From Pezicula radicicola (lineage: Eukaryota > Ascomycota > Leotiomycetes > Helotiales > Dermateaceae), in contig PDUO01000022.1 in NCBI GenBank assembly GCA_003008705.1, positions 706,549 through 770,548 on the forward strand: a stretch of 64,000 nt of DNA, read 5' to 3'. The notes below the pieces were generated by a model. The model was not told the origin of the DNA. It searched no databases and saw only the letters and a program-made list of their open reading frames with translations. Made by a program: the position numbers and the translations under genes. Positions 1,702 to 32,970 of the stretch are shown piece by piece (within the stretch, counting starts at the first letter, position 1; each line of letters begins with the position of its first letter).

Positions 1702-4527
1702 ATGACGACTACTAATGATCCAAGCCAGCAAGGCCAGCAAGGCCAACCAGTTCAGCAGAATCAACAACCTCAGCAAAGCCAACAAGCCCAGCCAAGCCAG
1801 CCACCCCGATTTACTCCACTCGCTAAGAGGTATACTCACCCAACAACAGACAACCATATCTCGATACGTGGAATAGAACCATTCAAAAGCGGTATGACGC
1901 CACTTTATCTCAATAGCCCCTCGACAGGAGCAGAACGAGGTCTTCACAGAAAACTTGAAAGATATCAAAGGGCCAGATTTGAAAGTGAGTATTAGCAGTG
2001 AGATTTCCCCAGAAACGAAGTTTGAAATTTGAATCTGATTTTAGGGTGTTTTTTTTAGCTTTTACAGCTGCTGATTTGCATGATTTGGAGTGCTTTGCAC
2101 CCTGGTCTACACTGACACTAAGCCCGCGTAATGAAAATTGGCTACGCAGTATTCCTATTCATCCAATTTTTGACATTGATAATTGGGATATGCCACCTAA
2201 GGATCAGCATCTTGCTAGCTTTCCCGTACGTGATGGTACTGATGGGCTTTATGTGGCAAGTAATCCAATTGTCTGGAGAGAACTTGAGCCTTGTCTGAAA
2301 CTGGCTTCTCTCTTTCTCATGAACGCTAATATATGGCCATGGTACGTATTTATCTGATTTGAACATAACAGGGCGCAAGCTTATATCATCATAGGTGGGA
2401 TGCGTTCTTCAAAGATCAACATACAGTTATCCCCCAGTCCGAGATACCACCCAATGCTAAGCGTGATGTCGAACTTAAACGCTTCAAACTTCGAGCAGCA
2501 AATTTAAGAGACACTCAAGAAGCCCGTAATGAAGTACAAAACTGTCTGACGCATTGTGCAGGACGGATTGGCTATAGTTTTTTTAGTGGCTGGTTGGATT
2601 CTGAATCACACTTACAGCCGGTTGACCCTAGACACTATAATTATGGTTTGACTGCCCCAACTCAACCGGATATTGGACATATTAATGTATGGATCTCTTT
2701 TGAGATGCTTGAGCCTTTGATAAAGAGGAAGGATCATACTGAAGCAGAGAGGGTTTTGGATAGGTGGAGGGTTGCGAGTACTATATTGCATGAGACTGTG
2801 GTATGTTAAGAACTCCTTACATAAAATTTCATGTATATATACTGAATGAGTTATTAGCATGCGATTTGGAAGGTTTACCATTTGGGAAAAGCAAAGGAGC
2901 CTCCGGAGCCATACTTCCATGATGAACCGTATTCAGAATTGTGAGTTCTGTTATTCCACATCTACATTCAGAAGTAGCTAATTGTGATAGGGGATGGTCA
3001 ATGGAGAATTCGGTAAGTAAACTCATATACTCTATCGCTTTGTGGAACTGATTAATAACAGTTATTCAACGGCGTAACCCATCCCATTGTTCATGACTAC
3101 GAGCCAAAACATGGACTCTCTTGCGGGGGGGTATATGAGATGAAGTATCCAATCCAGATGGCGCACAATTCAAACCATCTTGATGCTCGGGCACCGTTAT
3201 TAAACACCAAGCCACCGTGGTGGGATCTAACGATAATATATCCCTGTGCAGTGAGCTGGTTTTTTGATATCCACAAATTAGATTTCTGGGAGGCACACGT
3301 CAAGAAGTAGGTCACTAGTATTCCAGAAAATAGATCGTTGCTAAAAAGTTATTAGATATGGAGACAAATCTACATATAGAGGACCGAAAGTAGAAGGAAG
3401 ATCCATTGATGGAAACCTTCCACCAATTGATGAACGTTATGCTAACGGTGACATAATCGAGACTGAGCAAATACCCATCGATTATTCCACAATGAATGAC
3501 GAAGAAGTTCGTGCAGTAACCCTCGAGAATGAACGCAGGTCACGAGTTGCACGACTTCGACAAATGACTCAGCAAGTTTGCTCACGCGTAGGTACAGCTG
3601 TCCGAAGTAACAATAATACTGATCTTGAGCCTCAAAATGCAAGAAACCTCAAGCCTGGCGAGAAACAGGAGCCTCCTAGAAACCCGTTGATCGATGCTCG
3701 TTTTAACACTATCCGTGACTATCTCGTTAATAACCGAAGGCAGTTGGCTTTGGATACGATGGAGACTTGGATGCCAGAGCACGTCATGTATGCCCATATT
3801 ATACGAAATGGTGGATTGCAACTCGGCGTGGATGAGTGGCGACAGTTTCTTTGGGATTGTGACACAAAAGGCACACTCTTCGTGTAAGTGTTTACTAACC
3901 CAATTCTTCAATTTCAATATTTTGAAAGACTACTAATATACGCATTAACACATTTAGATACTATCCTGATGACGGTTATGGTATGCTCCAAAGAATAGAT
4001 AATGGCTGGCCCCCAAATCAATCACCACCGGTACAATATCAAGCACCACGAAGCGAGCTATGGGTTTTCTTTCAGGACAAAATTCTCCCAAAATTTCGAG
4101 AAAGAGAACAGGATATATACTGGTTATGGGACGACCCTAAGGTACATGGTGAATATAGCGATCTAGATGCTGAGTCTTTCCGAGCGATGTGTAATTGGTT
4201 TATAAGGAACCAAGGACAACAAGTTAGGAGTCTTTTGTTGAATGGACAGCCGGAATTGACGACGAGTCAGATTGATGAGCTTATTGATATGACTGACAAA
4301 AGGAAGGGATGGATGACGTAAGTACTTGTGGTTTCGGATGTGCTGTTTACGATTGTGGATTTGTTTACTGACTATTTTGATGCAGCTTTGGTCCTAAGGG
4401 TGTATATCGTGTTAGGAAATCGAACTGGAAGCTGCCACAGCTTCCATTGACCACGAGGGTGAACAAGAAGTTAAATAAATTAAATGACAGGTTTGAGGAT
4501 AAGTTTACAAGGTGTAAACAGCAATAG
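1702..4527 (+). CDS. Uncharacterised fungal protein with HExxH (zincin-like) motif
   Basis: I model nine exons: 1702-1984, 2059-2341, 2395-2800, 2858-2940, 2991-3012, 3062-3306, 3356-3883, 3958-4317 and 4386-4527, giving about 783 residues. All joins keep frame and have GT/AG ends; the second acceptor could instead lie at 2068. A Gln/Pro-rich N-terminus (about residues 5-35) precedes a globular region. Residues about 321-325 read HETVH, within ILHETVHAIW, which matches the zinc-binding HExxH of metallopeptidases. Glutamates at about 351 and 357 (ELGWSMEN) sit where gluzincins carry the third zinc ligand. No signal peptide is seen, so a cytosolic location is likely. An intron falls inside the HExxH motif, and exon 5 is only 22 nt. 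I do not know a named family for it; peptidase activity is inference from the motif. Confidence 0.85.
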
Positions 4528-5267
4528 TTTAGGTTTCTGTAATTGTATTTGCGTATTGGAGATTTATTACTTTCGTATAACATGTGTCACTGATATTGAA
4601 GCATTAAGCTATAGTGGTCTATCATTTTGTGTGTCTAACAAACTGTCTCTGTAGTATTTAAAGTTGTAACATATAGTTGTAGCAATGTCCCCCTACACTT
4701 TTAATCCTCTTTTCTCTCTTATTTTCTACACCTAGGATTTATAATTGTAAGTATTCTATCATTAGCATTATAGGGATAGAAAAGGTACTACGTAAATGAC
4801 TTAAAGCATTTATGCACAGGGCTCCTAAATTAAAGAGGTGGTCCACAACAAACGTCACTTCTTACACCTTAAAATGTAAGAATTTAATCTTTTATTCTAT
4901 CTACCTTATGTCCTTGAAAACTACCCTCCCGATGTAATCACTTCACTAAACAAAATTTACCACTATCATACAAGTAAGTGTGAAGACAATTTCAACTCAA
5001 TTCCCAAAAGAAAATTCTACACAGAACTCCCAGATATACAATTTTCCAGCAGTCCTTAAACACAATTCTCTAAACCAGACTCAAAAACAGTCATTCTAAT
5101 CCTTAGGTACAAACCAATGCTCAGCCAACTAGCAACTAGCCAGGAACGACCCTCACCGTTCCAAAAACGGACCTAGCTAGACCAAACCAACCATCCCTAA
5201 TCCAGTCAACCCATTCTCTAGCCTAGAAAGCGTAGAACTAAGAAACAAGAAAAACCACCAGAAACAG
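4528..5267. other. AT-rich intergenic sequence
   Basis: Downstream of the HExxH gene; contains its 3' untranslated region and A/C-rich noncoding sequence. No gene seen. Confidence 0.5.
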
Positions 5268-6893
5268 CTTTGTTGCACATCGGAAAATGATCGCAAAGCC
5301 ACAAATCAAGTTAGAATAGACATCATTTTTAATTCTGAATTATTTTTTAATAGTGGTAGGTGCTAAAAAAGAAGAAGGGATTTGTTGCAAATCTGCATAT
5401 TTTCCAATATTTTTGACTTCCAGCTTTCTAATCAAGGCTGTAAACTATTACAATGATAGTCGAGGTGATTTATACTAAGTGGGCCAGTAAGTAGAGCTAT
5501 CTCAAGCGGTCTCTCGAAAGCGTAGCCGCCAACCTGGAAAAGGTGAAGATAGTGTCTTTGGTGTCTTTGAATATGATTTTTGTTGCATATCGTATAACTA
5601 TGTAACATAGTTTAGTCATGGCAGCATTTTCTAAAAGTCTTTATCCTCTTACAAGCTTTGATCTACTTCTAGACTAGAGACGTTGACTTACTAAGTACGC
5701 TATCTCGAAACGGTCTGTGTAACTAGCACCGAAATAGCGTAAACATTTTTTGAACACCACTTTTGTTGCATATCGAATGACTATGTAATATTATTTGAGA
5801 TCTTGCTAGTTGTGTGGTTTCACAGCCTCAGGACGCCTGCCAGACGCATCTGTATATTCCAAGCCTTCGGACTTGGAGCTATTTGGAACGCTACTTCGGA
5901 GCGATCTCTTGACTCTAGTCCGGATGTAGTCTAGATGTCTTTGAGCAAGACTTTTGTTGCATATCATATAATGATTGTCTTTGATAGTATTTTTGATAGT
6001 GATATAGTTAAGAGCCTTGATTTGTTCGTGTCTGTCACTAACCTTTGGACCCAAGGTCACTTAGATTCTAATTATGCGACCTTGAAATTTTATCATGAGT
6101 TTTGTTGCATATCGTAGAATGATGTGCTTTAGTAGGGCTTTTACTAGTGATATAGTTAGTAGGCTTGAGTTTTTTGTGTTTATCACTAGCATTTTGGACC
6201 CAAAAGCTATTTGGATCTAAATATGTGATCTGGAAACCGAGCACAAGTTTTGTTGCATATCGAACATGATCGCCCCATATTTTGATTCTTGCGAGTCATG
6301 TAGTGGATAATAGCCTGACGTGCTTGACAATGTCGTTATTGACTTATTATTTAGAGTTAGAACTATTAGACATGCTTCTAGAAGCGGTCTATCAAAACTT
6401 GCCCCAAAGTAGCGAAACAGTGTCTATTGTTGCATGTCGAGCATGTTTGTAATTACGTGATTTATTTTGTTTCTTGATAGTTCCGTAGCTTTGATGTACT
6501 CATGTTTGGGCTTGAGGCTTACTTGAAGTTTGGCGCGATCTTAAAACGGTTCTAGAAGGCGAGGACACCAGCCCCGAAGTTGGAAATGAAATTTTTTGTT
6601 GCACATCGAATATAGCCGATATACTTCTCTTCTTGCTACTTGATCGATAGTATGACGTGCCTGGTAATATTATAATTGACTTCTTATCCAATGGGGCGTG
6701 GATCAGTACTTTTTGTTGCATATCGAAAAAAAAGTTTTGATTACATAGTAGGTAGCCTTATAATGTCATTATTGACATCTGGTCTTTGAACATGAAGCTA
6801 TTAAGTACATTATTTGTAAACCATCTCAAAATAGTCTCTCAACTAACCAAGATATGGCGTAGATATCCACAAACAAACACTTTTGTTGCATAT
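5268..6893 (+). repeat. Array of about 11 diverged units with conserved TTTTGTTGCATATCG core
   Basis: The core TTTTGTTGCATATCG(AA) occurs at about 5268, 5381 (weak), 5577, 5761, 5952, 6100, 6248, 6426, 6594, 6710 and 6881, all on the plus strand, spaced 113-196 bp. The sequence between cores is also repetitive but much more diverged. Units ending at 6115 and 6263 are clear 148 bp tandem copies sharing GTGATATAGTTA and TTTGGACCCAA. Several other units share a CTATCTC-AAACGGTCT block and a CCGAA-TAGCG block. No reading frame runs through the array. It is an old tandem repeat (satellite-like), or a noncoding RNA locus or protein-binding array, in which only the core has resisted change. Confidence 0.85.
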
Positions 6894-8594
6894 TAGAGAG
6901 TTGTGTGCAATCGATTTCGCTTCCAACCTTTCGGTTTCAGGCTTTGAATCAATACCCATTATACCCAACTTCAAGAAACTAAAGAGAATTCCTCTCCAAA
7001 TTCATATAAAACATCTCATACCTACCAATCTACAAACCTACAAAAATAACAGAACGCAATAGTAAAAAAGCATGAAGCAACTAAAACGTCAACAATCTTT
7101 TTCCATCTCCATTCAATAACCACTATGTGAACAACCTACCTCCATATTTACTTGTCTCCTCTCTATCACAGCCAAAGACGGATTCCATCCCATCACGCAC
7201 AAACCAAAGCCAAAAACCAAAAACCAAAACTCACAACAGCAATATTGCACATATACAATCCCGACCCGAAAATAAAATATCACACAATACCATTAAATCA
7301 TCAACCCATTCACTCATCTTCCACCATTCCCCAACTATAGATGAAAACAGCACAATTCAGCACAGTCCAAAAGAAAATTAAGGACAAAAGGCAACCTATG
7401 AAAAGCCCACTATGTTCGGGCAACTGTGACTGATTTAAGTTGGGAGGCGTGCGAGGCTGAACGAACGGACTGACGGGCATGCTAATGGAGGGGGATCAGG
7501 GAATGCACGGATATTCGCGGCCAAGTGGACGATGTGCAACAAAAATCAGAAAGGAAAAAAAAAAGAAAGGAAAAAGTTTGAGAAGGAGTAGGAGATTTGG
7601 GAGTAGATCGAGTAAACTGCGCACTTTGCTATGAGATTAAGTCGCTATGGGTGAGAAATAGAGAAACTAAGTTCTCCTTGGAGGACGAAAAATATCGAGG
7701 TCGAAGCACTAGCAACGACCTCATAGAATTGACGTCACGAAGGGGGTTTAATTTGATTTCATTCCATAGTAGTTTCAGCCCAACTTAGACCTCAATTTAA
7801 ACCCCAACCTGAAAACTTGATTCTCAACGGCCAAAGGGAGAGAGACGATTAAGGTCTGGTGCGTTTCAAGTCAAGCCACGCTCTATGGCGTACAAATATA
7901 GAAATAAGCGGCCGATACTGACATGGGGCCACACTTCACCAAATCTCGATACTGAATAAGGTAACTAGTAAAATCAGTAATAAAATGACAATTTTTTTTT
8001 ACAAAAAAAAAAGATATACGAGACATCTTTAAGTTAGAAGCACATGGAATTGTAAATAAATGATTTTTTATTTGATTTCTTTTGTTATTTTTAAGGGGGA
8101 TTTAAAGAAAATGGTCTATGTTTAAATTAGCCACTTATCTTATCTCTACGCCGTTGAGCCACCTTAGAAGCGCTCGCTTAAATTTTAAATCCGGGAGCCT
8201 AGTAGGCTGAAGCCGCTGGAAGGGCTGGATGCGTGCGGCACAAGCAGATCTACACCTGGCATACCTTGTGAGGCTTACGGCCGTGACGCCTTCTCGTCCA
8301 GTGATGAACCACCAGAATGGTTGGTGAATCTCTCCGCAGCGGCGCAATAATAGCAGATGATCGGCGTAACTGAGCTTCATTGTCAAAGGTTGGATTTTGG
8401 ATTCGATTAGTATAAGAACTCATTGAAGCTCTCGTAATATCGCTATTGTTCAACTCCATTCACATTAAGCTCTTTCCAAGACAAATATCATACAGCCAGC
8501 TTCTCATTATCAGCGTTATCATCAACCCTTCTATCGTTTTATCACTTTCTGCTACTCATCAAAGACCAACGAACCAGATTCAAAACCTCTCAAT
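6894..8594. other. Noncoding region upstream of the NmrA-like gene
   Basis: No gene recognised. Contains an A-rich, C-rich stretch at 7020-7380 whose open frames are low complexity, an inverted isolated copy of the array core at 7531-7545, an A/T homopolymer pair near 7987-8010, and a GC-richer block at 8150-8340 with no convincing coding potential. The promoter of the gene at 8595 should lie at the right end. Confidence 0.5.
7531..7545 (-). repeat. Isolated inverted copy of the core motif
   Basis: GATGTGCAACAAAAA is the reverse complement of TTTTTGTTGCACATC, the CAC variant of the array core (also seen at 5268 and 6594). It lies 640 bp beyond the array and on the opposite strand. Confidence 0.6.
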
Positions 8595-9500
8595 ATGTCT
8601 ACAAGAACATTCCTAGTTATTGGCGCCACGGGCACCCAAGGGGGCTCAGTCGTAGCCGCTCTCCTCTCCAACACAACTCTGCAAGACAATATCAAAATCC
8701 TTGCCCTAACTCGCAACACTACTTCTACCAAAGCCAAATCTCTGGCGACGGACCCACGGGTCCAGCTCCTCAAAGGCGATCCAACATCTCCCGAACAAAT
8801 CTTCAAAGATGCTAACACACACATCGACAGTGTGTTCTGCGTGACAGTTCATGGCCCACCAGGAGCTGAGGAAGCACAAGCACAAGGACTCATCGACGCC
8901 AGTCTCACTCATGGTGTCAAGCATTTTGTTTTCACTTCAGCTGATCGCGGCGGTGAGATCGTGTCCGATAATAACCCCACGCCTGTTGCGCATATTGCCA
9001 CGAAGCATCACATTGAGCAGTACTTGAAGCAAAAGACTCAAGGGACGTCGATGACATGGACGTTTTTGCGTCCTGTAACCTTCATGGACAACCTCACACC
9101 GGACTTTGAAGGGAAGGGATTTGCAGCCATGTGGAGACAGGTTGGCAATAAACCAGTGCAACTTGTTGCAGCGACTGATATCGGACATTTTGCTGCGAAG
9201 GCATTATTGGAGCCAGCGAATTATGCGGGCAAGGCAATTGGGATTGCTGGTGATGAGTTGAACTTCGAGGATGCTTGTAGGGTCTTTAAGGAGACAATGG
9301 GTGTGGAGATGCCCACGACTTTTTGCGCTGTTGGATCAGTCTTGAAGTTCGCGATGAAGGATATTGGATCGATGTTCAAATGGTTTGAGAAAGATGGTTA
9401 CAATGTTGATATTGTGGGACTAAGGAAGGAATATCCTGAGCTACAGGACTTTTCCACTTGGTTGAAGAAGAGTAGTGGCTTTCGAAAGAGCGAGAAGTAG
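8595..9500 (+). CDS. NmrA-like family NAD(P)-binding protein
   Basis: Single exon, 301 residues, starting at an ATG that follows a pyrimidine- and adenine-rich leader. The N-terminus TFLVIGATGTQGGSVV (about residues 4-19) is the Rossmann dinucleotide-binding motif GxxGxxG of atypical short-chain dehydrogenases. FVFTSADRGG (about 115-124), the TKHHIEQYLK helix and the TFLRPVTFMDNL segment match the NmrA/HSCARG group. That family includes NADPH sensors, nitrogen-repression regulators and isoflavone-reductase-like enzymes; many members have lost the catalytic Tyr-x3-Lys. Length is normal for the family. No signal peptide or membrane segment, so cytosolic. No cluster partners nearby. Family assignment is secure; whether it is an enzyme or a redox-sensing regulator cannot be told from sequence alone. 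Confidence 0.93.
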   Translation: MSTRTFLVIGATGTQGGSVVAALLSNTTLQDNIKILALTRNTTSTKAKSLATDPRVQLLKGDPTSPEQIFKDANTHIDSVFCVTVHGPPGAEEAQAQGLIDASLTHGVKHFVFTSADRGGEIVSDNNPTPVAHIATKHHIEQYLKQKTQGTSMTWTFLRPVTFMDNLTPDFEGKGFAAMWRQVGNKPVQLVAATDIGHFAAKALLEPANYAGKAIGIAGDELNFEDACRVFKETMGVEMPTTFCAVGSVLKFAMKDIGSMFKWFEKDGYNVDIVGLRKEYPELQDFSTWLKKSSGFRKSEK

Positions 9501-32480: not shown

Positions 32481-32970
32481 TGTAAGAGTTTGTGCCATTA
32501 CAAATGGCCCACCCCACGAAAATACACCAAAAATGGCGAAATTACACCTTTTTAAATCAGTAACTACTAATTTATTTCTTATAAAATTAAAAAATCTAGT
32601 AGATAATTACTTAAAAATATATATACTATAAGGAATTAATATTTTCTTTAAAATTAAGTGTTTAATATATACTTAAATATAGTATATTTAAATTTTTTTA
32701 AATTTTATATAATTTTATATATAAATTAAGTGATTTTAAGTAAAATTTTCTTTTATACTTAAAGAACATCTTGTAACTTTTTTATTAGGTAAATAAATTA
32801 AATTCTAAAGATTACAAATTAAAAATAAAGTAATTCTTATATATAATCTTTAATTTGATATCTTTATTTCTATTTATTGTTGATTTATAAATAATTTAAC
32901 AAGGTATAATTTCGCTATTTTTGGTGTGTTTTCGTGGGGTGGGCCATTTGTAATGGCACAAACTCTTACA
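32481..32970. mobile_element. 490 bp nonautonomous inverted-repeat element (MITE)
   Basis: The two ends are inverted copies of each other over about 70 bp: TGTAAGAGTTTGTGCCATTA at 32481 is matched exactly by the reverse complement ending at 32970. Identity continues through ATGGCCCACCCCACGAAAA and beyond, with about four mismatches. The roughly 350 bp interior is very AT-rich and has no transposase. I could not find a clear target-site duplication, so the superfamily is not assigned. Long terminal repeats with a noncoding core suggest a MITE or a deleted DNA transposon, possibly mutated by RIP. Confidence 0.88.

Follow-up and report, generated by a model that had tools for sequence, protein, structure and literature searches.

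A short, asymmetric sequence word that recurs as a same-strand array in the window (the whole stretch of 64,000 nucleotides analysed) occupies about a hundred non-genic places in the genome, and we judge the chances to be about even that it is the recognition site of a putative sequence-specific DNA-binding protein. The word is strongly over-represented in the genome, clusters on one strand, is more conserved than the spacers around it, is absent from predicted exons and tolerates zero or one base before a loose right-hand part. That it is kept by selection, as the sequence-only reading had suggested, appears well supported within this one genome by the roughly 58-fold excess, by arrays that are alike in little else and by a core identity above that of control positions.

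The array in the window

A search of the whole window for the 15-letter core, allowing up to three mismatches, gave 16 matches versus 2.45 expected; none of 100 shuffles reached 16, and the highest gave 7. Eleven of the matches, with 0-3 mismatches, form an array at 5268-6895, all on the + strand. The cores and the genes beside them are as follows.

3345..4321, + strand: gene before the array, no Pfam match (open stretches 3345-3887 and 3926-4321, taken by inference as one gene)
5268..5282, + strand: core 1, 2 mismatches
5380..5394, + strand: core 2, 3 mismatches; T form TC-T-GCA
5578..5592, + strand: core 3, exact
5761..5775, + strand: core 4, exact
5952..5966, + strand: core 5, 1 mismatch; A form
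6100..6114, + strand: core 6, exact; its unit and that at 5952 share approximately 75% identity
6248..6262, + strand: core 7, exact
6425..6439, + strand: core 8, 2 mismatches
6594..6608, + strand: core 9, 1 mismatch
6711..6725, + strand: core 10, exact
6881..6895, + strand: core 11, 2 mismatches
7530..7544, - strand: single inverted core, 1 mismatch
8469..9500, + strand: NmrA-like gene after the array

The array thus bears out the earlier claim of at least eleven same-strand cores, with core-to-core spacings of 112, 198, 183, 191, 148, 148, 177, 169, 117 and 170 bp. It was also correct that the window holds no further copies except the inverted one: the other four matches have three mismatches each, and their number is at chance level. 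The description of the core as "frozen" is a little strong. Of the 11 cores, 5 are exact, and 11 of 165 letters deviate. Some units are approximately 75% identical in pairwise comparison, and others are recognisable chiefly via the core.

As had been stated from the sequence, the array is free of long open frames, and the longest stop-to-stop frames in it have 84 and 85 aa. With only such short frames, no Rfam match in window positions 4000-9000 and no tRNA anywhere in the window, the array looks noncoding. Protection from RIP was considered and rejected, the RIP indices of the array being ordinary (TA/AT 0.96 and (CA+TG)/(AC+GT) 1.16, versus window means of 0.87 and 1.19) and the arrays in L130, L136 and L137 being more RIP-like.

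The best named match of the NmrA-like protein in a protein search is from Tricladium varicosporioides (77% identity), with further matches in Cudoniella, Coleophoma, Cadophora and other fungi. Also among the matches are a partial chytrid protein (78%) and proteins of the basidiomycetes Rhodocollybia, Mycena and Gymnopus (74-76%). Judged by this one protein, the host is a filamentous fungus and probably belongs to the Helotiales. Elsewhere in the window, at 32481-32970, there is an imperfect palindrome of approximately 490 bp, which matches its reverse complement at 69% identity; of all 2-kb bins in the window, the one that contains it has the highest A+T content.

Genome-wide occurrence and clustering

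Across the 61 Mb and 152 contigs of the one assembly searched, TTTGTTGCAYATCK has 168 exact sites versus 1.8-2.9 expected (approximately 58-fold over the expectation of 2.9), and its reversed pattern has none. The strands are used equally, with 87 and 81 sites. A search with the 15-mer allowing two mismatches, which the sequence-only reading had proposed, likewise gave an excess, with 458 matches versus 118 for the reverse. Rather than being scattered at random, which that reading had named as evidence against its suggestion, the cores occur on many contigs but far above chance, in clusters and, within these, mostly on the same strand.

Among the matches listed, 162 of the 168 sites could be placed, and joining those less than 2.5 kb apart gave 105 loci, comprising 82 single sites and 23 clusters, of which the array in the window, the only one within view of the sequence-only reading, is one. 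Eighteen of the 23 clusters lie entirely on one strand, and only about 0.45 neighbours were expected by chance. Strand agreement between adjacent sites is seen in 51 of 55 cases at distances below 1 kb, compared with 28 of 53 beyond 20 kb. When the pattern is relaxed, the biggest clusters hold 12 cores (C1, near 1.300 Mb), 11 (C14), 10 (the window) and 8 (C120). Phasing of the spacings was rejected, with R of 0.09-0.20 across five periods for 58 of them. In the parts of the literature accessible to the search, no description of the word was found; the papers that matched concern honey bee larvae, animals and mammalian cells, and our guess is that the words in them are primers.

Consensus of the word

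In a consensus built with per-locus weighting from 120 sites at 41 loci, only TTTTGTTGCA, Y, A, TC and K carry clear information; because the collecting pattern prescribed TTTGTTGCA and TC, their invariance alone proves nothing. When the sites are split by the base after TC, the right part is offset by one, TC-G-Y-A versus TC-T-R-Y-A. GYA follows immediately at 39 of the 120 sites and one base later at 13 (background approximately 3% each), which gives 52 sites with TTTTGTTGCAYATC plus 0 or 1 base plus GYA. A further 10 sites have AYA one base later (background approximately 4%), and 58 have none of these three right-hand forms. We describe the motif as TTTTGTTGCAYATC(W)GYA with a loose last part, which lies 3' of the core and beyond what the sequence-only reading had seen.

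The form TC-A-GYA, searched for afterwards, was found four times versus 0.03 expected, and three of these sites (C2:511811, C14:881641 and C65:341842) lie less than 500 bp from other listed cores. Genome-wide, the base after TTTGTTGCAYATC is G or T in 168 cases, A in 17 and C in 1. One array, C74 (L168), has a longer common stretch, TTTGTTGCAYRTCTGAATCTCGGCACACAAA, in the consensus of its seven units. G+C is weakly raised at positions 21-25 counted from the core start, and no clear second motif was found near the core or at a fixed distance from it.

Conservation of cores and spacers

Used as genome queries, the window array and the C120 array each match their own place alone. When 42 sequences were cross-compared, similarity in the core flanks was found within loci, except for a single locus pair (L149 and L002). 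The arrays are therefore unrelated to each other, which indicates that tandem duplication occurred separately at many cores. Long-period tandem repeats are also found without the core, in 10 of 17 rows from 20 sequences.

Several other repeats were noted in these sequences. L138 has two cores in opposite orientation, set within 36-bp arms at 4874-4909 and 5231-5266 (94% alike); no other clear inverted pair with longer arms came up in the cross-comparison. A 210-bp stretch occurs twice in L144, 3 kb apart and 74% alike (4462-4669, which adjoins a core cluster, and 7477-7679). A dispersed repeat with AAGTGAGTTACTCAAATC-like units, unrelated to the core, is present at L132:1101-1208, L002:908-986, L164:1978-2034 and L139:5729-5763.

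For the comparison of core and spacer, which the sequence-only reading had also proposed, cores were masked so that units were not picked by their cores, each unit was aligned to the remaining array with a register search, and the core position was then examined; pseudo-cores 35-60 bp away, handled identically, served as the control. Pooled over arrays, identity was 0.81 for 32 core pairs versus 0.60 for 112 control pairs (Mann-Whitney p = 1e-7, an optimistic value because pairs within one array are not independent), with flank identities of 0.74 and 0.76, respectively. In 7 of the 32 pairs, including two of the four from the window, the alignment brought no two cores together. Only four masked pairs from the window align well, with cores 14/15 and 15/15 identical in two of them, so the contrast rests mainly on the pooled arrays. 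An earlier alignment without the register search gave no core excess (376/630 in the core versus 4139/5664 in the flank), and an N-masked version without it left too few usable alignments; we attribute both outcomes to masking that broke alignments or let them slip. Loss of the core does happen, as seen from homologous units with decayed cores (e.g., in L168, L143 and L136).

Position relative to genes and alternative explanations

Positions relative to genes were analysed for 88 sites in 28 strand clusters from 20 sequences, with gene calls made by a simple codon score. None of the 88 sites falls in a predicted exon, where exons cover 19.8%; the chance of this, computed by cluster, is 0.002. 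Relative to the gene on their 5' side, the 16 clusters with at least two cores are sense in 14 cases, antisense in one and unscored in one, whereas the 12 singles are sense in three, antisense in seven and unscored in two (Fisher p = 0.0017). By the arrangement of the flanking genes, eight of these clusters are in convergent, five in tandem and one in divergent regions, and two have a missing flank. The sense bias is partly geometric, since any site between convergent genes counts as sense; in the tandem-gene regions, clusters are sense in five of five. The neighbouring genes are mutually unrelated: 11 of 20 reading frames scanned received Pfam names, namely Vps62, dynamin, pyruvate carboxylase, catalase, MYND, PB1, G-patch, MFS, adaptin, prenyltransferase and FMN dehydrogenase. 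Within the pyruvate carboxylase gene, a stretch between two predicted exons (L136:9069-9198, - strand) is one of three of approximately 120-130 bp that are 74-83% alike (the others being L146:2776-2894 and L149:799-925, both + strand). Each has GTAAGT ... CTAAC ... TAG, and they resemble introner-like elements, which are introns copied into different genes.

The orientation of the clusters (14 of 15 scorable in sense, against 3 of 10 singles) is also what an RNA-level element would give. An explanation of this kind is the main rival, although it seems to us rather unlikely: the arrays would be transcribed sense to the preceding gene, as a 3' extension or a separate lncRNA, in which an RNA-binding protein or a small RNA would attach to the core. 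The tandem-gene regions and the difference from singles fit it, yet half of the clusters lie between convergent genes, where every site is sense, and the singles run mostly the other way. Fourteen nearly invariant letters are also long for single-stranded RNA recognition. No fold signal emerged from 115 sites (mean z of 0.00 sense and -0.11 antisense), and Rfam gave no match over any core in window positions 4000-9000 or in six array loci, the latter having one sub-threshold match away from the cores, to the snoRNA family Afu_198 at L137:7167-7330 (33.5 bits, cut-off 40). It is extremely improbable that the core is a promoter element of small noncoding RNAs, like the element upstream of snRNA genes or nematode piRNA genes. 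Such an element would account for independent units that have one short element in common and unrelated sequence behind it, as well as for the weak G+C rise at positions 21-25; however, no second motif at a fixed distance was found. Because of a resemblance between the right half of the core and the plant upstream sequence element, the stretches before U1 and U2 were checked: an snRNA-type promoter was rejected because the core is missing before all six U2 and six U1 matches (the U1 matches being below the Rfam cut-off), the best agreement being 10/13 letters. U2 and U1 matches lie head to head at C47:744764-745414 (L176 is the stretch between the genes), and by eye, several of the upstream stretches (C47 and L177-L186) have GCAAAC, (A/G)TCACATG and TATATAA in common, possibly an snRNA promoter of this fungus.

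The core could be a break or recombination site that causes tandem duplication and is shared as a cause, without any use; this is quite unlikely, for although separate arrays of unrelated units do each contain it, 82 of the 105 loci are single, tandem repeats arise without it and the conservation of cores above spacers is left unexplained. A transposon origin, with the core as a terminal or subterminal repeat that a transposase recognised and that many insertions left behind, is in our view very unlikely. The inverted pair in L138 and the pogo/CENP-B-like HTH domains in the genome (HTH_Tnp_Tc5, seven matches) point toward such an origin, but flanking sequence is common beyond the core in L149 and L002 alone, the genome searches with two arrays found no other copies, and four HTH loci contain neither the core nor core-like terminal repeats. 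A transposon end or MITE was accordingly rejected, as neither a shared element body nor terminal inverted repeats were seen in the 42 sequences and two genome searches. A viral source was rejected as well, because patterns of two cores spaced by 150-180 or by 80-110 had no match in viral contigs; the single 15-mer matched at least 120 stretches, with one match each in the 80 listed, which are probably chance matches. Two 5.8S matches were above the cut-off, and the surrounding stretches, which lack an intact rDNA spacer, hold no core.

A candidate DNA-binding site

A recurring word at about a hundred non-genic places, amid spacers that have drifted, suggests recognition by some molecule. Because the word is long and asymmetric, uses both strands equally, lies outside exons, gives no fold signal and is kept amid drift, it has the look of a DNA-binding site; we infer from these patterns what kind of molecule would be bound, that it would read DNA rather than RNA, and its likely task. 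The site would be long and composite, with TTTTGTTGCA, YATC, then 0 or 1 base and often GYA, and a protein with several contacts that tolerates one base of slack would fit it. At some loci the stretch bearing the site would have been tandemly duplicated, after which the spacers would drift and most cores be retained. Since spacers drift and cores are kept, we propose that an array acts via the number of proteins bound, independently of spacer sequence, and arrays would increase local occupancy. Counting against the DNA-binding reading are the 58 of 120 sites without a right-hand form, the 7 of 32 misaligned pairs, the decayed cores and the tandem repeats that lack a core.

The location of clusters after gene 3' ends or between convergent genes would make a boundary, terminator or polar barrier likelier than a promoter element. 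More speculatively, and on balance doubtfully, the word could mark an undescribed kind of site by which this fungal lineage organises its chromosomes: composite, approximately 18 bp long and with one base of slack, it would be read by a dedicated putative protein at about a hundred non-genic stations, the arrays being placed mainly past gene ends or in convergent regions and duplication setting the dose of protein bound. Sites that range from one copy to about a dozen in an array would offer a natural series for copy-number tuning of a binding-site effect, and with a consensus this precise, optional base included, tests by pull-down, footprinting and deletion are easy to set up.

Comparison with known systems

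Centromeres, pairing centres and regulatory noncoding RNAs are the main settings in which short words are known to be kept while the repeats around them drift. The CENP-B box of alpha-satellite DNA is a short, protein-bound word kept within otherwise diverging satellite units, in which it resembles the core; however, it belongs to megabase centromere arrays, whereas the core occupies about a hundred small loci on many contigs. Identity with the box, whose consensus is NTTCGNNNNANNCGGGN, was rejected in a by-eye comparison with this consensus: the core has TTTG instead of TTCG, and CGGG is missing at the place needed.

The C. elegans pairing-centre motifs, words of approximately 12 bp bound by the HIM-8/ZIM zinc-finger proteins, are likewise repeated in clusters amid unrelated surroundings. 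The word is a different one, and the clusters here are small and are not known to mark an end of every chromosome. Short motifs are also repeated in regulatory noncoding RNAs, such as the Xist A-repeat, the roX boxes and the S. pombe DSR, which have in common with the arrays a short core in several same-strand copies with drifting spacers; the arrays differ in occurring at about a hundred loci and without a structure signal.

The Reb1/TTF-I terminator arrays and RTS1 are polar barriers to replication or transcription. Like them, the clusters described here are same-strand arrays of an asymmetric site, often past the 3' end of a gene, although the sequence differs and the arrays lie beside unrelated genes. 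With respect to a fixed polarity after 3' ends, and on gene calls from the simple codon score, clusters are 14 sense to one antisense and singles three to seven.
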